Assembly (NCBI RefSeq): GCF_900243745.1
Contig: NZ_LT984798.1
Span: forward strand, 62,001 to 126,000
Source of the DNA: Desulfovibrio sp. G11
GTDB taxonomy: Bacteria > Desulfobacterota > Desulfovibrionia > Desulfovibrionales > Desulfovibrionaceae
DNA: 64,000 bases
Direction of reading: 5' to 3'
The stretch's first letter is position 1, and the number at the start of each line of letters is the position of its first letter. The notes under the pieces were generated by a model. It made no database searches. It was not told the DNA's origin and saw only the letters and a program-made list of their open reading frames with translations. A program made the position numbers and the translations under genes. Of this stretch, positions 13,909 to 32,346 are shown one piece after another.

Positions 13909-13977
13909 GAAGATAAGAATCATTTTCACCGCCGCCAAGGTGGCTTGCGGCACAAATACGAAGCTCATGGAGCGTGT

Positions 13978-14574
13978 ATGCTGTATGCAGGTGAGGAGGC
14001 CCTCGGCCTCATTGAAACGCTGGGGATGGTGCCTGCCATTTATGGGGCGGACAACATGCTCAAAGCCGCAGATGTAGAACTGATCGCTTACGAAAACGTA
14101 GGTTCTACTCTTGTAACCATTATGGTAAAGGGCGATGTGGCAGCCGTGCAGGCCTCTGTGGCCGCCGGGGCCGCAGCTGCAGCCACCATAGGCAAGCTCA
14201 CGGCGCAAAATGTCATGCCGCGCCCGGTTCGCGGGGTTGGCGGCATCGCCATGGCCCACGTTGTGGACTCCATACCCGAGGGTGACCCCGGCCTACGTTC
14301 GCTGGGCATGATTGAAACCTTCGGGATCGTCTATCTTATGGAAGCGGCTGACGCCATGATAAAGACGGCCGATGTGGAGCTTATCGGCTATGAAAACGTG
14401 GCTTCTGGCTACTGTTCCGCCCTTGTTCAGGGCGACGTGGCGGCCTGCAAATCCGCAGTGGAGGCGGGCGTCAAGGCCGTAAAAAATATGGGTACAGACG
14501 TCTACAGTTCCTGCGTCATCCCCACCCCTCACCGGCATCTTGTAAAACTTGTACGGCGGTACACCCTGGCCTAG
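13978..14574 (+). CDS. cutA: Microcompartment shell protein with two BMC domains (BMC-T)
   Basis: A 198-residue protein with two BMC domains in a row, residues about 5-85 and 103-188, each starting with an LGxIET motif (ALGLIETLG, SLGMIETFG). Such tandem proteins form pseudohexameric trimers in the shell facets. It opens the choline operon directly after the MerR-type promoter. I take the ATG at 13978 with GGAG five bases ahead; a TTG eleven codons earlier is possible but has no site. The symbol follows gene order in published cut loci. Confidence 0.85.
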   Translation: MLYAGEEALGLIETLGMVPAIYGADNMLKAADVELIAYENVGSTLVTIMVKGDVAAVQASVAAGAAAAATIGKLTAQNVMPRPVRGVGGIAMAHVVDSIPEGDPGLRSLGMIETFGIVYLMEAADAMIKTADVELIGYENVASGYCSALVQGDVAACKSAVEAGVKAVKNMGTDVYSSCVIPTPHRHLVKLVRRYTLA

Positions 14575-14600: not shown

Positions 14601-16079
14601 ATGATCGGCGACAAGGACCTCATTTCTATACAGCAGGCGCGCATTCTGGCCGAAAATGCCATTGAAGCCGGCAAAAAACTGGCCGCCCTGCCACAAGAGA
14701 ATCTGGATAGCATTGTTGAAGCCATGGCAGACGCTGTGGAAACGCATGCGCAGTCCCTTGCCGTCATGTGTCATGAAGAAAGCGACTGTGGCCGCTGGCA
14801 GGACAAAATGGCCAAAAACCTTTTTGTCTGTCGCCGGGTCCGGCAGAGCCTGCGCGGCATGCGCTGCGTCGGCTATCTTGGCGGGCAGGAGCAGGAAGGC
14901 GTTTATGACGTTGGTGTGCCCCTGGGCGTCATTGTAGCCCTCTGCCCGGTGACCAGTCCTGTATCTACCGCCATCTATAACGTTCTGCTGGCCATCAAGT
15001 CCGGCAATGCCATAATTTTTTCCCTCCACCCCCGTGCTGTGGACAGCATGCGCCACGCCCTGGATATCATGATTGCCGCCGGTCAGGCCCACGGCCTGCC
15101 CGAAGGGGCCATATCCTATCTGGACATTGTGGCAAAAAGCGGCACGGAAGAACTCATGCGCCACCCCGGCGTGGCCCTGGTCATGGTTACGGGCGTGCTC
15201 GGCATGTTCGAGGCTGCCCGCGCCAGCGGCAAGCCCCTCATCTATGGCGGCACAGGTAACGGCCCGGTTTTCATCGAGCGCAGCGCCGACATTCCAGCCG
15301 CCGTGGAGCATATTATCGCCAGCAAAACCTTTGATAACGGGCTGGCGCCTTCAGCCGAGCAGTGCGTCATCGTGGATGGCTGTGTTGAGCGGCAGACCCG
15401 CCGGGCCTTTCAGGACAAAGGCGCATATTTCATGAGCGAGGCCGAGGCGCAGGCCCTGTCACGGGTGCTCTTTCATGAAGACGGACGCCGTCACCGCCAC
15501 ATGGTGGGCCAGTCTGCCGAGGCCCTTGCAACCAAGGCCGGCTTTTCCATTCCTGCCGATACAAAAGTGCTCATGGCTGAACGCAAGTACGTTACAGGCG
15601 AGGATCCCTATGTCAGGGAACTGCTCTCGCCCGTCCTCGGTTATTACGTGGAACCTGACTGGATGCACGCCTGCGAAAAGTGCGTGGAACTACTGCTTCA
15701 GGAGCGGCATGCGCAAACTCTGGCTATCCATAGCCGGGATGAAGAAGTCATCCGCCAGTTTGCCCTCAAAAAACCCGTGGCGCGCCTGCTGGTCAACACC
15801 GGCGCTGCTTTTGGCGGCATGGGGCTGACAACCAACCTTACCCCCGCCATGACGCAGGGCAGTGGCATTGCGGGCTACGGCATCACATCAGACAATATTT
15901 CACCCATGAATCTCATTTATCGCAGAAAGATAGGCTATGGCGTGCGTGATCTCGCCCAGCTGGCGGATTTCACCGCACCGTCCGCCCCCGGCGGGGGCGC
16001 GACCGGCAACGAGCAGAACTTTGACCTGCTCAGACGCGTACTGCGCGAGGCTCTGGGCGCTCTGCCCCAGGCTCGCTGA
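14601..16079 (+). CDS. cutB: Aldehyde dehydrogenase homologue lacking the catalytic cysteine
   Basis: A 492-residue member of the CoA-acylating aldehyde dehydrogenases (EutE/PduP group), which turn acetaldehyde, CoA and NAD+ into acetyl-CoA. NAD-binding segments (LCPVTSPVSTAIYN, SGNAIIFSLHPRA) are present. At the catalytic site the partner gene cutF reads [11 protein letters not shown]; here the aligned residues are FDNGLAPSAEQ, so proline stands where the nucleophilic cysteine belongs. A cysteine follows five residues on (EQC), but out of register. The protein may be structural, regulatory or inactive rather than an enzyme. It lies between the first shell gene and cutC. The N-terminal helix (LISIQQARILAENAIEAGKK) resembles shell-targeting peptides. 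Confidence 0.85.
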   Translation: MIGDKDLISIQQARILAENAIEAGKKLAALPQENLDSIVEAMADAVETHAQSLAVMCHEESDCGRWQDKMAKNLFVCRRVRQSLRGMRCVGYLGGQEQEGVYDVGVPLGVIVALCPVTSPVSTAIYNVLLAIKSGNAIIFSLHPRAVDSMRHALDIMIAAGQAHGLPEGAISYLDIVAKSGTEELMRHPGVALVMVTGVLGMFEAARASGKPLIYGGTGNGPVFIERSADIPAAVEHIIASKTFDNGLAPSAEQCVIVDGCVERQTRRAFQDKGAYFMSEAEAQALSRVLFHEDGRRHRHMVGQSAEALATKAGFSIPADTKVLMAERKYVTGEDPYVRELLSPVLGYYVEPDWMHACEKCVELLLQERHAQTLAIHSRDEEVIRQFALKKPVARLLVNTGAAFGGMGLTTNLTPAMTQGSGIAGYGITSDNISPMNLIYRRKIGYGVRDLAQLADFTAPSAPGGGATGNEQNFDLLRRVLREALGALPQAR

Positions 16080-16138: not shown

Positions 16139-18685
16139 GTGGATCTTCATGATTTTTCGAGCAAAATAGCGGAAGTTACCAAGAATCTTTCGCCTGAAGA
16201 GCGCGAGCAGTTGCGCAAGATTTTTGCCACTGTCACCCTGCCCGCCCAGTCGGCCCCTTCCGCAGCGGCACAGCCGTCTCCCGCTGCCCACTCTGGTCCC
16301 GGCGTACCTGAAGGGCCTACACAGCGCCATGTGCTGCTGAAAGAAAACTACCTCAAGCAGGTTCCGCGCATCACCATTCACCGCGCCCGCACAATCACCA
16401 AGATTGACAAAGAAAACCCCGGTATGCCGCGTATTCTGCTGCGCGCCACTGCTTTTCGCCATTGCTGCGAAAGCGCTCCGCTGATTATCCAGGACCATGA
16501 ACTCATTGTCGGCGCCCCCAACGGCGCGCCCCGCGCCGGTGCTTTTTCTCCCGAAATTTCCTGGCGCTGGCTCAGGGATGAGCTGGATACCATTGACAGT
16601 CGCGCCCAGGACCCTTTCCACCTTGCCGAAGAAGACAAAAAGATCCTGTGTGAGGAAATCTTCCCCTACTGGGCGGGCAAGTCTGTAGATGAATACTGTG
16701 AAGCACAGTACCGCGAAGCCGGTCTGTGGGAACTTTCGGGTGAATCCTATGTATCCGACTGCTCCTACCACGCCCTCAACGGCGGCGGCGACTCCAACCC
16801 CGGCTACGACGTCATTCTCATGAAGAAGGGCATGCTGGACATTCAGCGCGAAGCACGTGAACACCTGGAACAGCTGAGCTATGACCGGCCCGAGGATATC
16901 GACAAGATCTACTTCTACAAGTCGGTTATTGAAACCACCGAAGGCGTCATGATCTACGCCCGGCGCATGTCCAAATACGCAGCACAGCTGGCCGCTCGCG
17001 AAAACGACCCCAGGCGCAAGGCCGAGCTGCTCAAGATCGCCGAGGTCAACGCCCGCGTTCCCGCCCATGCCCCCACCACCTTCTGGGAAGCCATTCAGGC
17101 CGTGTGGACCGTGGAATCACTGCTGGTTGTGGAAGAAAACCAGACAGGCATGTCCATCGGCCGTGTCGACCAGTACATGTACCCCTTCTACAAGGCCGAT
17201 ATCGAAGCGGGCCGCATGACGCCTTATGAAGCCTTTGACCTCGCAGGCTGCATGCTCATCAAGATGTCTGAAATGATGTGGCTCACCAGCGAAGGCAGCT
17301 CCAAATTCTTTGCCGGCTACCAGCCCTTCGTTAACATGTGCGTTGGCGGCGTCAGCCGTGAAGGGCGCGACGCCACCAACGACCTGACCTATCTGCTCAT
17401 GGATGCGGTGCGTCATGTGCGCATCTACCAGCCCTCGCTGGCTACCCGCGTGCACAACACCTCGCCCCAGGAATACCTGAAAAAAATCGTGTCCGTCATC
17501 CGTTCGGGCATGGGTTTTCCGGCTGTGCACTTTGACGACACCCACATCAAGATGATGCTGGCCAAGGGCGTCGACATTGAAGACGCCCGCGACTACTGCC
17601 TCATGGGTTGCGTGGAACCGCAAAAATCCGGCCGCCTGTATCAGTGGACGTCCACGGCATACACCCAGTGGCCCATCTGCATCGAGCTTGTACTCAACCG
17701 CGGCGTGCCCCTCTGGTACGGCAAGCAGGTCTGCCCTGACCTCGGCGATCTGAGCCAGTTCGACACTTTTGAAAAGTTTGATGCCGCCGTCAAGGAACAG
17801 ATCAGGTACATCACCAAATGGTCAAGCGTGGCTACGGTTATCTCCCAGCGTGTCCACCGCGACCTGGCGCCCAAGCCGCTGATGTCCATCATGTACGAAG
17901 GCTGCATGGAAAAAGGCCGCGATGTAGCCGCCGGCGGTGCCATGTACAACTTCGGTCCCGGCGTGATCTGGAGCGGCCTTGCAACCTACGCCGACTCGAT
18001 GGCCGCTATCAAGAAGCTCGTGTATGACGACAGGAAGTACACCCTGCAGCAACTTAACGAGGCGCTCAAAGCCAACTTTGAAGGCTATGACGCCATTCTG
18101 GCCGACTGCCTGGCCGCGCCCAAATACGGCAACGATGATGACTATGCCGACGATATCGCCGCCGACCTCATCGCCTTTACCGAGCGTGAGCACCGCAAGT
18201 ACCGGACGCTCTACTCCATCCTGAGCCACGGTACACTGTCCATTTCCAACAACACGCCCTTTGGTCAGCTCCTGGGCGCTTCGGCCGGCGGCCGCAAGGC
18301 ATGGCAGCCGCTTTCCGACGGTATCAGCCCCACGCAGGGCGCGGACTACAAGGGTCCCACGGCCATCATCAAGAGCGTGTCCAAGATGTCCAACGACAAC
18401 ATGAACATCGGCATGGTGCATAACTTCAAGCTCATGCCCGGCCTGCTGGATACCCCCGAAGGCGAACAGGGCATTATCACCCTCATTCGCTCTGCCAGCA
18501 TACTTGGCAACGGTGAAATGCAGTTCAACTATCTGGACAACAAGACCATGCTTGAAGCCCAGCAGAACCCCAAAGACTATCGCGACCTTGTGGTCCGTGT
18601 GGCAGGCTATAGCGCCTTCTTTGTGGAACTTTGCAAGGACGTGCAGGACGAAATCATCAGCAGAACTGTGCTGCGCCACTTCTAG
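16139..18685 (+). CDS. cutC: Choline trimethylamine-lyase (glycyl radical enzyme)
   Basis: Splits choline into trimethylamine and acetaldehyde by radical chemistry in the microcompartment lumen. The 848-residue length fits type I CutC. The thiyl-radical cysteine and base glutamate are Cys491 and Glu493 in GCVEP; the radical glycine is Gly823 in RVAGYSAFF. The SYVSDCSYH and GDSNPGYD segments carry the Tyr and Asp of the known choline pocket. The first 30 residues form an amphipathic helix joined by an Ala/Pro linker (about 38-60), likely the encapsulation peptide. GTG at 16139 is the start, with GGAGG upstream. It is distinguished from diol dehydratases and pyruvate formate-lyase by GCVEP and its partner cutD. 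Confidence 0.97.
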
Positions 18686-18740: not shown

Positions 18741-18800
18741 ATGAAAGATAACGACAGACAGCGCAGTGCTGCGCCTACAGCAGGGTTTTATCGTGATTGA
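18741..18800 (+). CDS. Possible 19-residue leader peptide before cutD
   Basis: An ATG at 18741 has a strong GGAGGGGG site inside the hairpin arm. The short frame ends in TGA at 18798-18800, overlapping the GTG of cutD at 18793. That geometry would couple cutD translation to the leader, and folding of the hairpin would reduce both. The peptide is charged and has no known family. Confidence 0.35.
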   Translation: MKDNDRQRSAAPTAGFYRD

Positions 18801-19725
18801 AAGAAAAGCCAGAGTTTTCAACATACAAAAATACAATATGTATGACGGACCGGGCATACGTACCCTGGTGTTTTTCAAAGGCTGCCCCCTGCGCTGCCAA
18901 TGGTGTTCCAACCCTGAAAGCCAGACCCGCCGCTTTGAGGTCCTGTTTAAAAAGGACATATGCGTTCACTGCGGCGCGTGCGTACCGGTCTGTCCCGTGG
19001 GCATCCACAGTATGACCAACGCGGGCAGCTGCCACGTGGTGGACAGGAGCAAAGACTGCATAAACTGCGGCAAGTGTGTGCACGCCTGTCCCGAAGCAGC
19101 CCTGGCTATTGCCGGAGAGCAGAAAGGCATTTCAGAACTGCTTGAAGTTATCGAGCAGGACTGGCTTTTTTACGAAAACTCCGGCGGGGGGCTGACCGTT
19201 GGCGGAGGTGAACCCATGGCGCAGCATGAGGCTGTAGCCAACCTGCTGCTGGCCAGCAGGCACAAGGGCATCCACACCGCCATGGAAACCTCGGGGTACG
19301 CAAAACCTGAAGTAGTACGCGCGCTGGCTGAAGTTTGCGACCTGTTTCTCTTTGACATCAAGCACATGGATGCCGACAAGCACTATGCGCTTACAGGCGT
19401 GCGCAACGAACTGATCCTGTCCAACCTGCAATGGCTGCTTGAAAACGGCTGTAATGTAAATATCCGTATGCCCCTGCTCAAGGGCTACAACGATGACGAT
19501 GCCGAAATACATGCCGTGGGCCGCTTTTTGACAGGGCATGGCAAAAGAAAAAATTTCAAGGGCGTGGATTTGCTGCCCTACCACAAAATGGGGGTAAGCA
19601 AGTACGCCCAGCTCGACATGGAGTATCCCATCAAGGACAACCCCGTGCTCGACGATGCCGACTTGCAGCACATTGAGTCCATCCTCAGAACCTACGGGCT
19701 GGACGTGAAGGTCATCAGGCACTAG
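18793..19725 (+). CDS. cutD: CutC-activating radical SAM enzyme
   Basis: Installs the glycyl radical on CutC using S-adenosylmethionine. The 310-residue protein has the radical SAM motif C-x3-C-x2-C (CPLRCQWC) near residue 30. A ferredoxin-like insert with two cysteine clusters follows (CVHCGACVPVCP and CINCGKCVHACP), as in glycyl-radical activating enzymes. GGGEPMAQ supplies the SAM-binding GGE-type motif. I start at the GTG at 18793, which gives the usual N-terminus before FNIQKYNMYDGPG; a GTG nine codons earlier is possible. The activator sits directly behind its target, separated by the hairpin and leader. Confidence 0.96.
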   Translation: MIERKARVFNIQKYNMYDGPGIRTLVFFKGCPLRCQWCSNPESQTRRFEVLFKKDICVHCGACVPVCPVGIHSMTNAGSCHVVDRSKDCINCGKCVHACPEAALAIAGEQKGISELLEVIEQDWLFYENSGGGLTVGGGEPMAQHEAVANLLLASRHKGIHTAMETSGYAKPEVVRALAEVCDLFLFDIKHMDADKHYALTGVRNELILSNLQWLLENGCNVNIRMPLLKGYNDDDAEIHAVGRFLTGHGKRKNFKGVDLLPYHKMGVSKYAQLDMEYPIKDNPVLDDADLQHIESILRTYGLDVKVIRH

Positions 19726-19754: not shown

Positions 19755-20363
19755 ATGCTGGCACTGGGACTTATAGAAACAAAAGGGCTTGTAGGAGCCA
19801 TTGAAGCGGCGGACGCCATGCTCAAGGCGGCCAATGTGCGCCTGCTTGAAAAAACGCTGGCGACCGGCGGCCTTGTGACCATCACCGTGGCAGGCGAAGT
19901 TTCGGCCGTGCAGTCGGCTGTAGACGCGGCCCAGGACTCGCTGTCCAGGCTGGAAGGCGCGGTCTGTGTTTCCTGCCACGTAATCCCCCGCCCTGACGGC
20001 GAACTTGACCGCATACTGCTTCTGCAGCCCGGGCAATACACTATAGACCCGGACCCTGCAACCGCCGCGCCGAAAGCAGAAACAGCGAAAGTTGAAATAG
20101 TGGAACTTGTCGAGATTGTGGAAGAAATCCCGGCCCCCGCAGCCCCGAAAGGCGGCGCGAAGGCCGAGACCAGCGGGAAGGCCCCGGCCCCTGAGGCGCA
20201 GGAAGCCTATGATCCCGAAAAATGCAAAACCATGAGCATGAACAAACTTCGTCAGCTTGCCAAAGACATGAAGGTAGACCTCTCCCGTGAGCAGATCGCC
20301 TCGTCCAACAGGCAAACCCTGATGAACGCCATCGACCGGGCGGCACGGAAGGAAAAGGAGTAG
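19755..20363 (+). CDS. BMC shell protein with C-terminal extension
   Basis: A 202-residue protein. Residues 1-90 are a single BMC domain (ALGLIETKGLVGAIEAADAMLKAA) that would form hexamers. An acidic, Ala/Pro-rich linker follows (about 95-150). The last 45 residues are a small helical basic domain (MSMNKLRQLAKDMKVDLS), a layout seen in EutK/PduK relatives, whose tails may bind nucleic acid or cargo. The cutE position follows from gene order. It is separated from cutD by 29 bp and from cutF by 3 bp. Confidence 0.85.
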   Translation: MLALGLIETKGLVGAIEAADAMLKAANVRLLEKTLATGGLVTITVAGEVSAVQSAVDAAQDSLSRLEGAVCVSCHVIPRPDGELDRILLLQPGQYTIDPDPATAAPKAETAKVEIVELVEIVEEIPAPAAPKGGAKAETSGKAPAPEAQEAYDPEKCKTMSMNKLRQLAKDMKVDLSREQIASSNRQTLMNAIDRAARKEKE

Positions 20364-20366
20364 GAC

Positions 20367-21944
20367 ATGGTTGATAAGGATTTGCTTTCCATTCAAGAGG
20401 CCCGCGCCCTGGTTCGCGCAGCGCGCAAGGCCCAGCCCGAATTCGCGCAGTTGAGCCAGGAACGCGTGAATGACGTGGTCAGGGCCGTGGCCGAAGCCAC
20501 GGCAGCCCAGGCTGAAGTTCTGGCAAACATGGCCGTTGAAGAAACCGGCTTCGGCAGACCGCAGGACAAAAAAATCAAGAACCTGCTGGCCAGTGAAAAA
20601 GTTCATGCCTGCATCAAGGACATGAAAACCATTGGCGTGCTGTGTTCTGATCCGGTGACCAAGATCGTTGAAATTGCCGTGCCCGTTGGCGTGATTGCCG
20701 GTATCGTGCCGTCCACCAACCCTACGTCCACTGTTATTTACAAGGCGCTTATCTCGCTCAAGGCGGGTAACGCCATTGTGTTCACCCCGCATCCCAGTGC
20801 CCGCAGTTGCATCGCCAAAACCGTGGAAGTCATTCAGGGTGCCCTGCGCGCCTGCCACGTGTCGCCCGATCTGGTGAGCAGCATCAGTCTGCCCTCCATT
20901 GAAGGCACCAACGAGTTGATGAAGATGGCTGACCTTATCCTGGCGACAGGCGGCCCGGGCATGGTCAAGGCAGCGTACAGCTCCGGCACCCCTGCTCTGG
21001 GCGTCGGCGCGGGCAACGTGCCTGCCTACATTGAGCGCAGTGCCAATATTGAAGATGCCGTGACCAAGATCATGAGCAGCAAAACCTTTGATAACGGCAC
21101 AATCTGCGCTTCGGAGCAATCCATCGTTACCGAGTCATGCATTGCCGACAAGGTTCGTGCCGTTATGGAAGCTCAGGGCTGCTATTTTCTTGCCGGAGAA
21201 AAGCTTGAAAAAGTCAAGCGCGTCATGGAACGCGGCAATGGCAGCATGAACCCCGCCATTGTGGGCCGTGATGCCCTGAGCATCGCCCGCGTTGCCGGCA
21301 TTGAAGTGCCGCAGGGCACGCGCCTGCTGGTTTCCGACGAAAAAGGCGTGGGACCCAAGTACCCCTTCAGCAAAGAAAAACTCACCGCCCTGCTGGGCTT
21401 CTATGTGGTGGAAGACTGGCGCGAAGCCTGCGAACTGTGCACGGCCCTCCTGCACAACGGCGGTGTGGGCCATTCGCTGTCCATCCACTCGCAGAACGAA
21501 GAGGTCATTCGTGAGTTCGGCCTTAAAAAGCCTGTGTCGCGCATGCTGGTGAATACGCCCTCCACACAGGGAGCCGTGGGTCTTTCCACCGGCCTGTTCC
21601 CCTCCTTCACCCTGGGCTGCGGCGCAGTGGGCGGCAGTGCCACTTCCGACAACGTAACCCCCCTGAACCTGCTCAACGTGCGCCGCGTGGCCTACGATCT
21701 GCAGTCACAGGGCTGCTCCTGCGCTTCTTCCGCATCGTGCGGCGTTTCCACCATGGCGGGCGTTTCTGCTCCTGCGGCTTCCGCCGGGCACTACCCGCCC
21801 TCAGCCATGCTTTCGGGCTGCTGCCACCACGGGGCCAACCACGATGCCGTGGTCGCTCCCCAGGCGGCCGCAGCAGCCGCTGGCGGGCTGGATATCAATG
21901 CCGTTACGGAAATGATCGTGGCGGAACTGAAAAAAGTTTTGTAA
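20367..21944 (+). CDS. cutF: CoA-acylating acetaldehyde dehydrogenase with C-terminal targeting tail
   Basis: Oxidises acetaldehyde from CutC to acetyl-CoA with NAD+. The 525-residue protein keeps the catalytic cysteine in [11 protein letters not shown], unlike cutB. NAD-binding elements [12 protein letters not shown] and [12 protein letters not shown] are present. After the domain ends (about residue 445) there is a Cys/His-rich linker (CSCASSASC, then CCHHGANHD) and an Ala-rich stretch. A final amphipathic helix ([17 protein letters not shown]) looks like an encapsulation peptide placed at the C-terminus, as seen in some aldehyde dehydrogenases. The linker cysteines could bind a metal. Confidence 0.92.
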
Positions 21945-22025: not shown

Positions 22026-22313
22026 ATGACCACTTCTTCCAACGCCCTGGGCATGATCGAAACCCGTGGCCTTGTCGGCGCAGTTGAAGCCGCCGACGCC
22101 ATGGTCAAGGCTGCCAACGTTACCCTTATCGGCCGCAGCCAGGTGGGTGGCGGCCTTGTGACCGTTATGGTGCGCGGTGACGTGGGCGCGGTGAAAGCCG
22201 CTACCGACGCTGGCGCAGCCGCCGCCAAAAAAGTGGGCGAGCTTGTAAGCGTGCACGTTATCCCCCGCCCGCACAGCGAAGTGGAGATGATCCTGCCCAA
22301 GCGCGAAGCCTAA
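22026..22313 (+). CDS. BMC-H hexameric shell protein
   Basis: A 95-residue single-domain shell protein of the PduA/EutM type ([37 protein letters not shown]). It would tile the shell facets, and its central pore should pass small polar substrates. AAGGAG stands seven bases before the ATG. It is nearly identical to the protein at 26078-26362, differing at a handful of positions, mostly at the ends. The cutG position follows from gene order. Confidence 0.93.
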
Positions 22314-22386: not shown

Positions 22387-23070
22387 ATGAATACTCAAGT
22401 GATGAACGAGCAAGCTCTTAAAGATCTTCTGGCTGGCGTGGTCCGCAAGGTGCTGACACAGGAATGCGGCGAATCTGCCGCTACCGCCATGAACGCCGGG
22501 CCTATTCCGGTGGAAATTTCAGCCCGTCACGCTCATTTGAGCGTGTCAGACGCGCTTACCCTCTTCGGCGAGGCTCTACGGCCCGACAGGCCGCTTTCCC
22601 AGCCGGGGCAGTTTCTGAGCACGGGGCGCGTGCGTCTTATCGGCCCCAAGGGCGTTATGGACAATGTGGCCGTACTCGGCCCCGCCCGCGATGTTTCCCA
22701 GGTAGAAATATCCCGGACGGACGCCCGCGCTCTGGGCATCAATCCGCCTGTTCGCCAAAGCGGCGACATTAAAGACACGCCGGGCATCATTCTGGCTTCG
22801 GCCACAGGGATTGTTGGTCTGGACTGCGGCGTCATCGTGGCTTCACGCCACATTCACATGCATACAGACGATGCCCGCCGCTTCGGACTCAAGGACAAGG
22901 ACATGGTCGACGTGCGGCTTGATACCGAACGCCCCATGATTCTGGAAAACGTGCTGGTGCGCGTCAGCGACAACTTCAAGCTGGCTATGCACATCGATGC
23001 CGACGAAGGCAACAGCGCGGGCTGGAAGCCCGGCGCCACCGGCATGATCATCGGACTGAGCAGAGGTTAG
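22387..23070 (+). CDS. pduL: PduL-type phosphate acyltransferase
   Basis: Exchanges CoA for phosphate on acetyl-CoA, giving acetyl-phosphate and recycling CoA inside the shell. The 227-residue protein has the two PduL beta-barrel halves, with zinc-binding histidines in EISARHAHLS and VASRHIHMH. The N-terminal ALKDLLAGVVRKVL helix is a typical encapsulation peptide, followed by a short linker. The gene abuts eutJ (two bases apart). An acetate kinase to use the product is not in this window. Confidence 0.93.
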   Translation: MNTQVMNEQALKDLLAGVVRKVLTQECGESAATAMNAGPIPVEISARHAHLSVSDALTLFGEALRPDRPLSQPGQFLSTGRVRLIGPKGVMDNVAVLGPARDVSQVEISRTDARALGINPPVRQSGDIKDTPGIILASATGIVGLDCGVIVASRHIHMHTDDARRFGLKDKDMVDVRLDTERPMILENVLVRVSDNFKLAMHIDADEGNSAGWKPGATGMIIGLSRG

Positions 23071-23072
23071 CA

Positions 23073-23894
23073 ATGGACTTTACCGCCGCTGACAAGCTTA
23101 TGGACACCCTGGAAAAATGCCGCAAAAAGCCCCGCAAGGTCACTGCCACGGAGCCGCTCTATGTGGGCGTGGACCTGGGCACAGCCTATATTGTTGTTGT
23201 GGCGGTCAATGCAAAAAAGCAGCCTGTGGCCTGCGCCATGCGCTTTGCCCAGGTGGTCAAGGACGGCCTTATCGTCGACTACACGGGCGGGCTGCGCATT
23301 GTACGTGATCTTACGCAGGAACTTGAAGAAAAGCTGGGCCGCAAGCTTGAAAAGGCGGCCATAGCCGTCCCCCCCGGGACCAGTGAACGCGACTGCGCCA
23401 CCCATCGCCATGTGGCGGAGGGCGCGGGCTATCAGGTCACCTCTGTGCTGGATGAACCCACAGCGGCCAACAGCGTGCTTGGCGTACGCGACGGGGCCAT
23501 CGTGGATATCGGCGGCGGCACCACAGGCATCGCCGTACTGGAAGACGGCAAGGTCGTCTATGTTGCCGACGAACCCACAGGCGGCACTCACGTGAGCTTG
23601 GTGCTGGCCGGCAACTACGACATCAGTTTTGAAGAAGCCGAAGACCTGAAAAAAGACAAGGCCCGTCAGAAAGAAATCTTGCCTGTGGTGCGACCTGTCA
23701 TTGAAAAAATGGGATCCATCATTCACCGGCATGTGCAGGGGCGTAATGTTTCGGCCCTGTATCTCGTGGGCGGCACCTGCTGCTTGCAGGATATGGAAAA
23801 GGTTATCCAGAAATATACCGGCTTGCCGACCTACAAGCCCGCCAATCCTTTTCTGGTAACACCCCTGGGCATAGCCCTCAATTGCACTGACTAG
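23073..23894 (+). CDS. eutJ: EutJ-type chaperone-like protein
   Basis: A 273-residue member of the actin/Hsp70 ATPase fold. Phosphate-binding motifs are YVGVDLGTAYIVVV (phosphate 1) and VDIGGGTTGIAVLEDG (phosphate 2), with DEPTAAN between them as in DnaK relatives; the DnaK substrate-binding domain is absent. EutJ proteins are thought to help assemble microcompartment enzymes, though their role is not settled. An adenine-binding LVGGTCCLQDME segment is near the C-terminus. Confidence 0.9.
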   Translation: MDFTAADKLMDTLEKCRKKPRKVTATEPLYVGVDLGTAYIVVVAVNAKKQPVACAMRFAQVVKDGLIVDYTGGLRIVRDLTQELEEKLGRKLEKAAIAVPPGTSERDCATHRHVAEGAGYQVTSVLDEPTAANSVLGVRDGAIVDIGGGTTGIAVLEDGKVVYVADEPTGGTHVSLVLAGNYDISFEEAEDLKKDKARQKEILPVVRPVIEKMGSIIHRHVQGRNVSALYLVGGTCCLQDMEKVIQKYTGLPTYKPANPFLVTPLGIALNCTD

Positions 23895-24665: not shown

Positions 24666-24953
24666 ATGCTTATAGGCATTGTTGTCGGCAATGTTTGGGC
24701 CACCCGCAAAGAAGATTCCCTCAACGGGCTGAAGCTCATGGTGGTGCAACGGCTTGACCTCGCCCACAACAAGCTGGCTGAAAGCTTTGTGGCCGTGGAC
24801 TGTGTGGGAGCTGGCATTGGCGAGCGGGTGCTTATCACCACCGGCAGTTCCGCCCGCAAGGCTCTGTATAATCAGGAAGCGCCCGTTGATGCCGCCATTG
24901 TGGGCATTCTCGATCAGGAAGAAATGATGGGCAAAAAACCGGAGAGCACATAA
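24666..24953 (+). CDS. eutN: BMC-P pentameric vertex protein (EutN/CcmL family)
   Basis: A 95-residue protein of the EutN/CcmL family that caps the twelve vertices of the shell. It opens with LIGIVVGNVWATRK and carries VDCVGAGIGERVLITTGSSA, the conserved core of the family. It lies seven bases after the PduM-like gene and three before the next shell gene, so all three are co-translated. It is the only vertex gene in the locus. Confidence 0.93.
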   Translation: MLIGIVVGNVWATRKEDSLNGLKLMVVQRLDLAHNKLAESFVAVDCVGAGIGERVLITTGSSARKALYNQEAPVDAAIVGILDQEEMMGKKPEST

Positions 24954-24956
24954 GCC

Positions 24957-25505
24957 ATGGATACTCTGGGCATTGTGGACAGCCGCAGCATAGCGGCCGG
25001 TGCTGAAATCACCGATGCCATGCTCAAGGCCGCGCCTGTTACTCTGGTGCGGGCGTCGGTCATATGCGCCGGACGCCTGCTCATCCTGGTCGAAGGCGAC
25101 CGCGAAGCTGTGGAAACTGCTCTTCGCGCCGCTGAAGGTACTGGTTTTCATCTGGCCGGAAAATATGCCATCTCGCCCGTGTCGCAGCAGGTACAGGCAG
25201 CCCTGCGCCGCCAGCCCTCCCCTATGGGCGGCCGGGCCATGGCCGTTATTGAATGCCGCAATGCCGCCGACGGTATCATGGCGGCGGATACGGCCGTAAA
25301 AAAAGCCGATGTGAGCCTTATGCGGCTGGTTATGGGGCAGGGCATCGGCGGCAAATCCTACTTTGTGCTTACAGGCGATGTGGCCGCCGTGCGTGAAGCC
25401 GCACAGGCCGCAGCCGATGCGCTGGGCAAGAGCCTTCAGCAAATGGTGGTCATTCCCCAGCCCGATGCGGAACTTGTAAAGGCATTTACAGGAGCGGCCC
25501 TGTAA
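24957..25505 (+). CDS. BMC-T shell protein with a pore-position cysteine
   Basis: A 182-residue protein with two BMC domains (residues about 1-85 and 93-178). The first domain carries Cys at VICAGR, the place where PduT has TICPGK and binds a [4Fe-4S] cluster on its three-fold axis. Position suggests the cluster could form here too, but the neighbouring Pro is replaced by Ala. It would be the second such protein in the locus, besides 29182-29733. The cutL position follows from gene order. Confidence 0.85.
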   Translation: MDTLGIVDSRSIAAGAEITDAMLKAAPVTLVRASVICAGRLLILVEGDREAVETALRAAEGTGFHLAGKYAISPVSQQVQAALRRQPSPMGGRAMAVIECRNAADGIMAADTAVKKADVSLMRLVMGQGIGGKSYFVLTGDVAAVREAAQAAADALGKSLQQMVVIPQPDAELVKAFTGAAL

Positions 25506-26077: not shown

Positions 26078-26362
26078 ATGGCGACGATGACTGACGCTTT
26101 GGGTATGATTGAAACCCGTGGGCTTGTGGGTGCTGTAGAGGCTGCTGACGCCATGGTGAAAGCTGCCAACGTAACCCTGATCGGCCGTGAGCAGGTGGGT
26201 TCAGGCCTTGTGACTGTGATGGTTCGTGGCGATGTGGGCGCTGTAAAGGCTGCCACCGATGCCGGTGCCGCCGCCGCTTCGCGCGTGGGCGACCTGGTGA
26301 GCGTACACGTGATTCCCCGTCCCCATGAAGAAGTGGAAATGATTCTGCCCAAATGCAAGTAA
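26078..26362 (+). CDS. BMC-H hexameric shell protein, near-duplicate
   Basis: A 94-residue shell hexamer of the PduA/EutM type, almost the same as the protein at 22026-22313. The two differ at the termini, in GREQVGSG versus GRSQVGGG and in the DLVSV/ELVSV segment. AAGGAG lies eight bases upstream. A spacer of about 190 bp without a gene precedes it. The cutN position follows from gene order. Confidence 0.93.
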
Positions 26363-26446: not shown

Positions 26447-27553
26447 GTGACCCAGTTCTACGGAAAGACGAAAATCTGCTACGGCCCTTACGCGCTGGAA
26501 ACCCTTGAAAGTTTCCCCGCCAGTCACGCCTTTGTGGTAACTGACCCCTTTATGGTCAAAAGCGGCTTTGCCGACCAGGCTGTAAGCCACTTGAAACGTA
26601 AAGGGATAGGCTTCAGCATTTTTTCAGGTGTGGAGCCGGACCCCACACTGCAGGCCGTGGTAGAAGCCACGGGACATTTTCTGCGCAGCAAGGCAGACAT
26701 GATTCTTGCTCTCGGCGGCGGCTCGGCCATTGACATGGCCAAAGCCATCTCCTACTTCGGGCACAAAGCCGCCCGCGACCGCAAGGCCATGCTGGTGGCC
26801 ATTCCCACTACCAGTGGCACCGGGTCAGAAGTAACCTCCATCGCCGTCATCACCGACAAGGTCAATGCGGTCAAGATTCCTCTTAATGACGAGTTGCTCA
26901 TTCCGGACGCGGCCATCCTTGACGCCCGCTTCACACGCACCGTACCGCCGCATGTGACCGCCTCCACCGGAATGGACGTGCTCACTCACGCTGTGGAGGC
27001 CTACACCTCGCGCCACAGCAACGTTTTTACGGCCATATATGCCGAACGGGCCATACGCAACGTCTTTACCTACCTGCACCGCGCCTACGAGCAGGGTGAC
27101 GACATGGTAGCCAGAGACAACATGCTCATAGGTTCCTGCATGGCCGGTCTGGCCTTCACCAACAGCGGGCTTGGCATTACGCACAGCATGGCCCACAGCC
27201 TTGGCGGCCAGTTCCACATTCCTCACGGCCTGGCTAACGCGGTGCTGCTGCCCATTGTCATTGACTTCAACAGCTTTGATGCGGGCGTGAAATATCGCGA
27301 AATCGCCGAAATGGCAGGCTTGCCCGCCGCCACCGTGGAAGAAGGAACCCGCAATCTGGTGGCAGCCGTGCGCGACCTCAACGCTTCGCTGGGCATTCCC
27401 GCTCGCGTGAGGGAACTCAAGGTTGATGAAGGCGAGTACCGCCGCAATCTTGACGCCATGGCCACCAATGCCCTTGAGGACATCTGCACGCAAAGCAATC
27501 CGCGCATGCCCTCGCACGATGATATTGTGAGCCTGTTCGAGCGCGTCTGGTAA
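26447..27553 (+). CDS. cutO: Iron-type alcohol dehydrogenase
   Basis: Reduces acetaldehyde to ethanol with NADH and so regenerates NAD+ for CutF. The 368-residue protein belongs to the group III iron-dependent dehydrogenases. NAD contacts are GGGSAIDMAKAISY and TTSGTGSE; metal ligands fall in GMDVLTHAVEAY (Asp and His), HSMAHSLGG and HIPHGLAN. The start is GTG at 26447 with GGAGG nearby. No encapsulation tail is obvious. The name follows gene order and the published alcohol dehydrogenase name. Confidence 0.94.
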   Translation: MTQFYGKTKICYGPYALETLESFPASHAFVVTDPFMVKSGFADQAVSHLKRKGIGFSIFSGVEPDPTLQAVVEATGHFLRSKADMILALGGGSAIDMAKAISYFGHKAARDRKAMLVAIPTTSGTGSEVTSIAVITDKVNAVKIPLNDELLIPDAAILDARFTRTVPPHVTASTGMDVLTHAVEAYTSRHSNVFTAIYAERAIRNVFTYLHRAYEQGDDMVARDNMLIGSCMAGLAFTNSGLGITHSMAHSLGGQFHIPHGLANAVLLPIVIDFNSFDAGVKYREIAEMAGLPAATVEEGTRNLVAAVRDLNASLGIPARVRELKVDEGEYRRNLDAMATNALEDICTQSNPRMPSHDDIVSLFERVW

Positions 27554-27657: not shown

Positions 27658-27844
27658 GGGCAGAAAACTGCCGCACAGGATTGAACTGCAGAGTATTTTG
27701 CGATCAAGGTTGTCTTCAGCAGCGGTAAAGACTGCGCGGGCGGCCTTATCCCGCCTTGCTGCGCGGGGCTTCGCACCGTCAGGCACTGCGCCTTGCACGG
27801 AATTTTCAATGATGAAATGCTCTAAAATCACCCGAGAGGAAACC

Positions 27845-29170
27845 ATGGGAAAAGCAATTGTAGACGCCATACGCCAGGCTGGCGTTGTAGGCGCTGGCGG
27901 GGCGGGACTGCCCACCCATGTAAAGGCTGACGCCACGGCGCAAACTGTGCTGGTCAACGGCGCCAGCTGCGAACCCCTGCTCATGAGCGACCCCTACCTT
28001 ATGGAAGAGCAGGTAGACGTCATGCTGCGCGGCCTTGAGGCCATGATGGACTGTACCGGCGCGAACCGTGGTGTTGTCTGCCTTAAGGGCAAACACGCCG
28101 CCGCCATGAAGAGTGTACGCGAAGCCGTGGCCCGACGCGGGCAAGGCCGCCTTGAAGCGTTTGAAATGGGCGACTTCTACCCTGCCGGCGACGAACAGGT
28201 TATGGTTTACGAAGTGCTGGGCGGCATTGTACCCGAGCGCGGTATACCGCTGCAGATCGGCGCTGTGGTCAGCAACGTGGAAAGCCTTTTCAATATTGCT
28301 CACGCGCTGGACGGCAAGCCTGTCACCCACCGTTACCTTACGGTCGGTTGTGAAGTGGTCCGGCCCATGGTGGTGCGGGTACCTGTAGGAACCCGTGTGG
28401 CCGAAGTGCTCAATTTTGCCGGTGGAACCACCATCAGCGAATACCGCGTGGTGGACGGCGGTCCCATGATGGGCCGTGTGCTGCCCGATGCGGACCAGCC
28501 GGTTACAAAAACCACCAGCGGTCTGCTGGTACTGCCGCCGGACCATAATGTGGTGAACCGCAAGGTAATGGACCCGCATGTGGTCAAGCGCCTCACAAAC
28601 ACCGTATGCTGTCAATGCTCTCAATGCACGGACCTCTGCCCCCGCAACCTGCTCGGGCACAAGTTGCACCCGCACAAGCTCATGCGTGTTCTCGACGGGC
28701 AGACCATCAGCAATCCTGTGGCGAAAGAGGCCCTGCTCTGCTCCGAATGCGGCATTTGTGAAAAGTTCGCCTGCCCTATGGGTCTTTCACCTCGTGAAGT
28801 CAATGCCATGCTCAAGCAGGAGCTTATGAAGGCAGGCATCAAATGGGAATATGACGGACGTCCCCTTGCCACATCCCGCTTTCGCGAGGAACGCCGCATC
28901 CCCACAAGCCGCCTTGTGAGCCGTCTCGGCCTGGCGGATTACGAGGCCCATCCCCCATTTGCCGGGGACTTTGAGCCGACAGAGGTACGTATTCCGCTGA
29001 AGCAGCATATCGGCGCTCCCGCCCTGTCTGTGGTTTCTGTGGGCCAGAGCGTCAATGTGGGCGATCTTATCGGCGAAATCCCCGAAGGGGCTATGGGCGC
29101 ACGCGTACATGCCAGTATCAAAGGTACGGTCAGCGCGGTTGAAAACGGCATCATCACCATCAAGGCCTGA
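27845..29170 (+). CDS. RnfC/PduS-like iron-sulfur flavoprotein
   Basis: A 441-residue protein of the RnfC/NuoF group, close to PduS, which oxidises NADH and passes electrons to cobalamin or a shell protein. The N-terminal nucleotide/FMN domain contains VVGAGGAGLPTHVK and VNGASCEP. Two ferredoxin clusters follow: CCQCSQCTDLCPRN and CSECGICEKFACPMG. The C-terminal barrel ends at INGTV-like GTVSAVENGIITIKA. No cobalamin enzyme is present here, so it may pass electrons across the shell with the PduT-like protein behind it. I start at MGKAIV, with GAGAGGA upstream; an upstream extension has no site. Confidence 0.88.
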   Translation: MGKAIVDAIRQAGVVGAGGAGLPTHVKADATAQTVLVNGASCEPLLMSDPYLMEEQVDVMLRGLEAMMDCTGANRGVVCLKGKHAAAMKSVREAVARRGQGRLEAFEMGDFYPAGDEQVMVYEVLGGIVPERGIPLQIGAVVSNVESLFNIAHALDGKPVTHRYLTVGCEVVRPMVVRVPVGTRVAEVLNFAGGTTISEYRVVDGGPMMGRVLPDADQPVTKTTSGLLVLPPDHNVVNRKVMDPHVVKRLTNTVCCQCSQCTDLCPRNLLGHKLHPHKLMRVLDGQTISNPVAKEALLCSECGICEKFACPMGLSPREVNAMLKQELMKAGIKWEYDGRPLATSRFREERRIPTSRLVSRLGLADYEAHPPFAGDFEPTEVRIPLKQHIGAPALSVVSVGQSVNVGDLIGEIPEGAMGARVHASIKGTVSAVENGIITIKA

Positions 29171-31086: not shown

Positions 31087-32346
31087 CATTGCTGTCCGGC
31101 TAAGGGGTAACAAAAAAGTCCAAAATCTCAGCAGTATGTGGTATAAGAAGTTACCACAACAACTTGCCACACAAGGAGATTTTGGACTTGAGCCATCATA
31201 CTACACTCTTCTCTCAACTGCTATCCCTGATACCGGGACATGTTTTTGAAAAACTCGAACGCAAGCACAAAACTGGCCGCTCTTCACGCCAATTTTGATT
31301 CAAGGAGCAATTCACCGTCATGGCCTTTATCCAACTCGCTGCAAGGCGCTCTTTACGCGATGGGCTTCGCGCCTTGGAGGCGGCCAAGAGACGGCTGTAT
31401 CACCTCGGCTTGAAATCAGTAGCGCGTTCCACGGTTGCCGATGCCAACAATTCAAGGCCTGTGGAATTTTTCAAAGACCTGTTCGCTGAAATGTATGGCC
31501 TGTGCCATCTTCGTGCGCCTCGTCACAAATTCCGCTTCAAGTGCAAGCTGTACAGCATGGACGCCACCACCATCAGCCTATGCCTGTCCATCTTTCCCTG
31601 GGCGTCGTTCCGGCGGAACAAGGCTGGCGTGAAAGTAAATACCGTGCTTGACCACGATGGCTACATTCCCGCTTTTCTCGATATCAACAATGCCAAAACC
31701 CACGAAAGCCGCATGGCCAAAAGTCTTTCATTGCCAAAGGGTTCCATCGTCACCTTCGATAAAGGCTATATCTGCTATTCCTGGTTTCGCATGTTGACCG
31801 CGAAGGGCATTTTCTTCGTAACCCGACTGAAGAGCAATGCTGCCTATAAGCTCGTTGATCGCCGCGCCGTAGACCGGAAAACCGGGGTCACGTCCGATCA
31901 CATCATTGACGTGAGCAGCCGGGGAAAAACCACTCGTCTACGCAGAATCGGCTATCGCGATGCGAAAACCGGCAAACGGTACGAATTTTTGACCAACCAT
32001 TTCCGCCTGTCCGCCAAGACAATTGCTGATATCTATAAAGAACGCTGGCAAATTGAAATATTCTTCCGCGAAGTCAAACAAAATCTGCATATTAAAAGCT
32101 TTGTCGGGCGCTCGGAGAATGCGGTGCACATCCAGATTTATACGGCCCTGACCGTGTATTTACTCCTGGCCTATCAGAAATTCCTGAGCAAGCTTGGGCT
32201 GTCGGTGCAACAACTCTCCGAGCTCATTTGCTTGAATCTGTTCGGCAAGGATTCTCTGGAAGAACTTCTGAATCCACGAAGACGAAAAACTATAAACACC
32301 TATAGTTATAGCCTGTTAGCTATGGGGGCTTAACCGGACAACATTG
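31087..32346 (+). mobile_element. IS4-type insertion sequence, copy 2
   Basis: A 1260-bp element with the same ends as copy 1 and a 9-bp target duplication GCCATCTGG at 31078-31086 and 32347-32355. It differs from copy 1 at only a few bases. Confidence 0.95.
31188..32333 (+). pseudogene. IS4-family transposase, copy 2, with premature stop
   Basis: The frame matches copy 1 except that GGA in the RQFGFKEQF segment is TGA here (31296-31298, one G-to-T change). The protein would stop after about 36 residues. An internal ATG at 31320 would allow a 337-residue C-terminal product that still has all three catalytic acids, but no ribosome site is evident. One further change replaces Phe by Ser in QQLSELI. 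Confidence 0.9.

Follow-up and report, generated by a model that had tools for sequence, protein, structure and literature searches.

Why would a choline-utilization locus that encodes a catalytically equipped acylating aldehyde dehydrogenase (AldDH), CutF, also keep a second homologue, CutB, that has proline in place of the nucleophilic cysteine? The question is posed here by the window, a stretch of 64,000 nucleotides from Desulfovibrio sp. G11. A dead CutB and the idea of a scaffold were already published in 2014: Axen et al. (PMC4207490) found that wherever a GRM1 locus has two AldDHs, one of them has Ser or Pro for Cys, and they suggested that it serves as a scaffold or a regulator. Sutter et al. 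(2021) described a putatively inactive second AldDH copy in GRM1A and GRM1B. What, then, is such a protein kept for, and where does it come from?

The choline locus of the window

The features of the locus, all on the forward strand and numbered from the first letter of the window, are as follows.

13945..14574, +, BMC-T shell protein gene in the cutA position, directly 5' of cutB, with two BMC domains at about 13999-14529 (the TTG start is the mechanical one)
14601..16079, +, cutB, homologue of acylating AldDHs, 492 aa, open frame with ATG start, catalytic residues lost (from the open reading frame, family search, alignment and predicted model)
14955..14957, +, CutB S119, at the place of the conserved Asn (CutF N118; alignment)
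15195..15197, +, CutB V199, opposite the second Gly of the GG in the nucleotide site (CutF G196; alignment)
15348..15350, +, CutB P250, at the place of the nucleophilic Cys (CutF C247; alignment)
15714..15716, +, CutB Q372, opposite the conserved His of the active site (CutF H369; alignment)
16011..16058, +, CutB residues 471-486, a C-terminal helix that follows a linker of low confidence and makes an encapsulation-peptide-like tail
16139..18685, +, cutC, choline trimethylamine-lyase of the short (type I) form, slightly extended at its N-terminus (TIGR04394)
18766..19725, +, cutD, the radical SAM enzyme that activates CutC (TIGR04395)
19755..20363, +, BMC-H shell protein with a C-terminal extension (family search)
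20367..21944, +, cutF, acylating AldDH, 525 aa, catalytic residues present (TIGR02518, alignment)
21105..21107, +, CutF C247, the nucleophilic Cys (alignment)
22043..22270, +, BMC-H domain in a 106-aa frame (domain search)
22387..23070, +, cutH, PduL-type phosphotransacylase (family search)
23073..23894, +, a context marker that we take to be an EutJ-like protein
24666..24953, +, a context marker, 'cutN', presumably an EutN/CcmL-like pentamer gene
24957..25505, +, PduT-like BMC-T shell protein (family search)
26078..26362, +, BMC-H shell protein (domain search)
26447..27553, +, cutO, iron alcohol dehydrogenase (family search)
27698..29170, +, PduS/RnfC-like protein (family search)

Type I choline utilization (GRM1) is encoded here in full. 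CutC and CutD are present together with BMC shell genes, an AldDH, an alcohol dehydrogenase and a phosphotransacylase, and CutC (TIGR04394, 1668.3 bits, cut-off 1050), CutD (TIGR04395, 566.6 bits, cut-off 360) and CutF (TIGR02518, 652.9 bits, cut-off 620.1) all score above the cut-offs of their families. At 848 aa, against 1128 aa for the type II protein of E. coli, CutC lacks the N-terminal duplication of about 350 aa, and the second AldDH without a catalytic cysteine that Axen et al. (2014) described for GRM1 loci is found in CutB with its P250. A search of the whole genome (3.42 Mb, one contig) with CutB as query at E ≤ 0.001 returned no homologue beyond CutB itself and CutF. Just 3' of the locus, at 31320-32333, lies a frame that has the look of a transposase.

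The nucleophilic cysteine is lost throughout the CutB family

The survey sampled cutC genes with their surroundings, at most about 22 kb per region. One genome-contig scan supplied 80 loci, of which 33 stood at ≥58% identity and the remainder were other glycyl radical enzymes. A further 138 regions (9 + 40 + 89) were found by searching with TIGR04394 in the window's phylum (395 genomes), its family (199) and four other groups (397, 206, 246 and 246); some genomes were present twice in the survey. A cutC match above 700 bits was found in 169 loci. AldDH frames of at least 420 aa gave 280 proteins, 269 of them distinct, with 138 nearest to CutB and 131 nearest to CutF; identical proteins are counted once in these numbers and near-identical ones remain, and 4 of the 131 CutF-type rows are from loci without CutB. 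The CutB sample spans loci of Thermodesulfobacteriota, Bacillota and Actinomycetota.

The initial annotation, made from the window alone, had placed a proline of CutB opposite the nucleophilic cysteine of CutF, and this placement holds. In a MAFFT alignment of the 269 distinct AldDHs, P250 stands opposite CutF C247 without a gap, within the stretch FDNGLAPSAEQ (CutB residues 244-254; [11 protein letters not shown] in CutF), and a phmmer alignment of CutB with PDB 3k9d, which has a cysteine at this place, is likewise ungapped through the P250 stretch. The annotation had also allowed that most CutB orthologues might keep the cysteine. None does: the nucleophile column is Cys in 131/131 distinct CutF-type proteins and in 0/138 CutB-type proteins, which have Pro (75), Ser (56), Ala (6) or Thr (1) instead. 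A split like this lies well beyond chance. The same Pro is found in five congeneric loci (L033-L037), so the missing cysteine of the window is not a local sequencing error. Loss of the cysteine is a fixed trait of the CutB family and not a recent mutation.

Further active-site positions are affected to different degrees. The second Gly of the GG pair, which we take to be the nucleotide site, is present in all 131 CutF-type proteins and absent from all 138 CutBs, and the conserved Asn, presumably the oxyanion Asn, is present in 131/131 CutFs and 28/138 CutBs. The active-site His (131/131 against 115/138) and Glu (131/131 against 111/138) are retained more often. Roles of the Cys, His and Glu in acylating AldDHs are described in PMC5311937. 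The Asn, His and Glu occur all together in 19/138 CutBs, and 12/138 have none of the four catalytic residues. The window CutB has lost the Cys, the Asn (S119), the second Gly (V199) and the His (Q372); its His-to-Gln change is recent and is found in 9/138 CutBs, namely the window protein and its near relatives.

The codons at the nucleophile place all have C as their middle base (TCN, CCN, GCN or ACN in 138/138 CutBs), as would be expected from a single step from Cys (TGY) to Ser (TCY) followed by changes of the first base. The CutB tree requires a minimum of 11 exchanges among Pro, Ser, Ala and Thr. Of the 56 Ser codons, 32 lie a single step from Cys, a residue that none of the sampled CutBs has. 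A cysteine lost once in CutB, with no reversal seen, at a position that had been freed from catalysis would look like this.

CutB is under constraint, and its tail resembles an encapsulation peptide

The second claim of the initial annotation, that the gene is complete and kept by selection, is borne out by the 492-aa open frame and by the rates of codon change. Across 182 locus pairs whose cutC genes are close, and which are not mutually independent, the Nei-Gojobori dN/dS has a median of 0.125 in cutB, 0.130 in cutF and 0.103 in cutC (173, 177 and 177 usable pairs, respectively). For the same pair of loci the amino-acid identity of CutB is often below that of CutF, and the CutBs of Actinomycetota are highly divergent, at 30-35% identity to the window CutB. 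The dN/dS values indicate that CutB is kept intact by selection despite its dead active site. Both marks of a pseudoenzyme are thus found in it, catalytic residues lost and fixed across the family (0/138 with Cys) and a gene that selection maintains. Since all the relatives examined have lost the active site and selection nevertheless keeps them intact, the job of CutB would be non-catalytic and is probably structural.

The AF2 model of CutB (mean pLDDT 90.8) predicts the AldDH fold that is expected of an EutE-type enzyme, and its best match in the PDB is 3k9d, with a TM-score of 0.96 by target and 0.89 by query, 1.7 Å and 45% identity. Behind this fold, 130/138 CutBs have a C-terminal linker and amphipathic helix (a tail of at least 18 residues), with a median best helical moment of 0.61, compared with 0.52 for the CutF tail. 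A linker followed by an amphipathic terminal helix is the mark of microcompartment cargo, and the tail of CutB can be described as encapsulation-peptide-like. Eight of the 138 are without it, Streptococcus CutBs among them. The tail of the window CutB resembles that of GRM2 CutF, a likeness that EUT tails share.

CutB groups with the live dehydrogenase of type II loci

If CutB is not CutF with a broken site, where does it come from? In a tree of 39 AldDHs, CutB groups with the live type II CutFs of E. coli and Proteus (support 100/99), apart from GRM1 CutF and the EUT-type enzymes; the type II CutFs in this tree are two only, and the grouping had been seen in an earlier tree before it was tested. 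That early, broader tree contained two long rows (L070 and a PduP-like outgroup), and the later one was drawn without them. CutB forms one side of a branch in three trees. A clade of CutB with GRM1 CutF is rejected (p-AU 0.0017), and the tree and this AU test together rule out CutB as a within-locus duplicate of CutF. Mean identities agree: 15 CutBs share 48.0% with the two type II CutFs and 39.0% with 12 GRM1 CutFs, and the top matches of the window CutB in a plasmid collection that holds chromosome-sized records are the type II AldDHs of Klebsiella (50.0%) and Proteus (47.7%).

Individual residues and gene order give the same picture. A113, G216 and G427 are common to the 15 CutBs compared (G427 in 14/15) and to both type II CutFs; they occur in 0/12 GRM1 CutFs, and among nine EUT-type rows A113 occurs in one and the other two in none. 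In the wider set A113 is found in 99/138 CutBs, G216 in 122/138 and G427 in 124/138. P344, E351, V393 and R442 were considered as a signature specific to CutB and dropped: both type II CutFs and most EUT-type rows have them, so these residues are inherited and not new. The deepest CutB branch is L066, with L063 and L238 nearby, and all three loci have the order cutB-cutO-cutC-cutD. The type II locus of E. coli is ordered AldDH-EutN-AlcDH-cutC-cutD, and a Klebsiella record has the same order with its AldDH gene unannotated. Given the grouping with type II CutF, the shared residues and the type II-like gene order, the simplest reading would make CutB the first AldDH that the choline operon had and type I CutF a later, EUT-like replacement.

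CutB follows the organelle more closely than the lyase

Among rows whose CutC stands at ≥60% identity, CutB is present in 144/147 with local shell genes and in 1/9 without them, the exception being a 7-kb contig (L059). Of the three shell-gene rows without CutB, L068 is a contig that starts inside cutC, L209 is taken up below, and L165 (with L260, both from genome G670) is a reduced BMC-T-cutC-cutD remnant in a genome without CutB or a close CutF, whose single AldDH match (212.7 bits) is 34% identical to CutF. Other BMC genes of G670 lie on other contigs, one cluster of them with a distant AldDH.

Whole-genome searches of ten genomes that have a CutB-less cutC locus show CutB to be absent from G014, G561, G1679, G670, G1677 and G1182. 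G014 has no match to CutB, G561 and G1679 have only long AdhE-sized or weak matches, and the close AldDH matches of G670, G1677 and G1182 are Cys-bearing or distant. The Enterococcus-type genomes G1559, G1567, G1589 and G1678 each have one further AldDH-like stretch with internal stops. In view of the 144/147 with shell genes, the 1/9 without and these cutC genomes lacking CutB, CutB tracks the organelle more than the lyase as such.

Two groups of lyase genes met in the survey are described here for their own sake. The cutC-cutD pairs of Enterococcus type (L065, L241, L242, L243) encode orphan CutCs with an N-terminal extension of about 60 aa that resembles an encapsulation helix; G1678 and G1589 gave no BMC-domain match, and in G1567 and G1559 BMC genes lie elsewhere in the genome. 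A second group of CutC-like glycyl radical enzymes (L070, L088, L159, L160, L161, L210, L211, L246, L247, L248, L249) is 56-59% identical to the window CutC, and those members that were scored pass the TIGR04394 cut-off. They have no adjacent cutD or cutB, some of their genomes also hold a full GRM1 locus, and some copies contain stops.

Within CutB loci, cutB lies immediately 5' of cutC on the same strand in 140/145. In four loci (L063, L066, L238 and L059) cutO stands between the two genes, and in L034 the open frames of cutB and cutC overlap. CutF is found within the sampled stretch of 130/145 CutB loci. The other 15 loci belong to 12 genomes, ten of which were searched with a CutF alignment: seven have a match above 650 bits elsewhere, and in G461, G467 and G493 the search found no evident CutF, only CutB and weaker AldDH matches (≤437 bits). 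The CutB loci of these three genomes (L043/L156, L132 and L130, respectively) are GRM1-like. The idea that CutB occurs only ever together with CutF was therefore dropped, and CutF is probably not an obligatory partner in every lineage.

The two loci read with a dead CutC domain are without CutB

In the GRM2 system, the N-terminal duplication of CutC, about 340 residues long, is essential for co-migration of CutF with the particles, and CutF then cross-links the core (Kalnins et al. 2020, PMC6971018). A long CutC is found in 0/145 CutB loci, where the longest CutC frame is 937 aa. Conversely, the two loci read that do have a dead N-terminal CutC domain of about 350 aa are both without CutB, one in E. 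coli (L251) and one in the Clostridium family group (L209/L259, genome G1182). A place covering at least 80% of the cutC query is present in 321/5426 E. coli genomes, one of which was read. The CutC of L209/L259 has an extension of 352 aa that is homologous to that of E. coli (36% over 332 aa); the AldDH of this locus is EUT-like, not type II-like, and the two free-standing close AldDHs of the genome are both Cys-bearing. Judged from these two loci, CutB would seem to be excluded where CutC carries the dead domain. Axen et al. (2014) placed GRM2 only in Gammaproteobacteria, and G1182 has a CutC with the dead N-terminal domain outside that range.

What does CutB do?

What the comparison of genes and genomes brings together is a lost active site in a protein under constraint, an encapsulation-peptide-like tail, a grouping with type II CutF and an occurrence beside shell genes and a short CutC, in most cases with CutF as well. 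This comparative evidence favours an assembly role for CutB. We lean, with moderate confidence, towards the reading that CutB is a pseudoenzyme, a GRM1 cargo with a dead AldDH fold, which would be the operon's original AldDH, replaced in catalysis by an EUT-like CutF and kept to build the core. An EUT-like second AldDH, today's CutF, would have taken over catalysis in the choline operon, and one change from Cys to Ser followed by drift would have killed the older copy. The dead CutB would have been retained as a builder of the core, where AldDH contacts now independent of catalysis would most likely let it link CutC to CutF, to the shell or to both. Since the dead CutC domain recruits CutF in GRM2, type I CutC is without it and the loci that bear it are without CutB, we propose that CutB may be its GRM1 equivalent and may tie the AldDH to CutC and the shell. 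A strict form of this model, with CutB as the recruiter of CutF, does not fit G461, G467 and G493.

An alternative that we consider unlikely is that CutB is a regulatory subunit, which would form mixed oligomers with CutF and tune its activity, for instance through a degenerate pocket that senses CoA, NAD or acetaldehyde. In its favour, the predicted model has the full AldDH fold, GRM2 CutF is described as tetrameric (PMC6971018), and CutF is found within the sampled stretch of most CutB loci. The His and Glu are moreover retained together in 100/138 CutBs, so that some ligand binding by CutB may persist. However, every CutB lacks the nucleotide-site Gly and 113/138 have Tyr in place of Gly at CutB position 215, both of which speak against NAD binding; the CutF with which CutB would pair is not its sister; and three of the ten genomes searched have CutB without an evident CutF.

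The adjacency of cutB and cutC, together with the persistence of CutB in those same three genomes, could instead point to a partner or chaperone that CutC requires for its activity or activation, a role that the initial annotation had named in calling CutB a possible CutC partner. That the lyase depends on CutB in this way is improbable: G014, G561 and G1679 have cutC and cutD and no CutB-like protein, cutO separates cutB from cutC in four loci, and CutC and CutD of D. alaskensis alone suffice to make trimethylamine (TMA) in E. coli (PMC6325248). Even less probable is a changed catalysis, such as a Ser-based acyl transfer or hydrolysis, or a function as an aldehyde-binding buffer. The 56 CutBs with Ser at the nucleophile place and the 115 with the active-site His would suit it, but the other 82 have Pro, Ala or Thr there, the window CutB is without Cys, Asn and His together, and the repeated exchanges on the tree (at least 11) argue that no particular side chain is required. 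Recent mutation, sequencing error and pseudogene decay are all refuted as causes of the missing cysteine by its absence from all CutBs across loci of three phyla, by the open frames and by the dN/dS of 0.125.

Of the four roles that the initial annotation suggested for CutB, namely scaffold, CutC partner, shell organiser and subunit of a mixed dehydrogenase, those of a scaffold or organiser and of a mixed oligomer with CutF stay as candidates. The preferred reading, a retired dehydrogenase kept for assembly, can be taken one step further. Both kinds of choline microcompartment might keep a dead copy of a core enzyme as a core builder, drawn from opposite ends of the pathway: in type II a dead lyase half fused to CutC, and in type I the original AldDH, retired as CutB after an EUT-like CutF had taken over catalysis, with CutB and the CutC domain as interchangeable recruiters of CutF. 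We regard this extension as tentative and rather doubtful.

How metabolosomes bring their enzymes together within the shell is still an open matter; Kalnins et al. (PMC6971018) state that metabolosomes lack specific adaptor proteins of an additional kind. As a dead enzyme found in 144/147 GRM1-type rows that have shell genes, CutB makes a strong adaptor candidate. The product of choline microcompartments is trimethylamine, which in the gut is a metabolite with links to disease. In C. ljungdahlii the AldDH gene CLJU_RS19625 beside the choline lyase, which is CutB by position only, is induced by choline (PMC12016505). In a 2026 review (PMC13258700) CutB is still given as a predicted CoA-acylating aldehyde oxidoreductase; with its active site lost, pathway accounts that have two live dehydrogenases in these loci are probably wrong.

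Comparison with known systems

The CutB described here is the same gene as the inactive second AldDH of GRM1, GRM1A and GRM1B (Axen et al. 2014; Sutter et al. 2021), with no difference in kind. To those accounts the present analysis adds the Ala and Thr variants, the further losses in the active site, the constraint, the grouping with type II CutF and the link to short CutC. In the published text searched we found neither this grouping nor the either/or relation with the CutC N-terminal domain, and we claim no priority; trees in the figures or supplements of Ravcheev (2019) and Sutter et al. (2021) could show the relation of CutB to type II enzymes that is absent from the text searched.

Compared with EutE-type acetylating AldDHs (TIGR02518; 3k9d), CutB has the same fold and length but lacks the nucleophile, and it scores 490.8 bits where the TIGR02518 cut-off is 620.1. 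Its nearest live relative, the type II (GRM2) CutF, shares A113, G216 and G427 with it and, unlike CutB, has the Cys, Asn, His and GG; the E. coli record shows no other AldDH in the type II locus. A parallel in function may be the N-terminal domain of GRM2 CutC: both are non-catalytic duplicates of a core enzyme in a choline microcompartment, the CutC domain being needed for CutF recruitment, and by analogy the two may share this function. They differ in origin and form, in that the CutC domain derives from a glycyl radical enzyme and is fused, whereas CutB derives from an AldDH and is free-standing.
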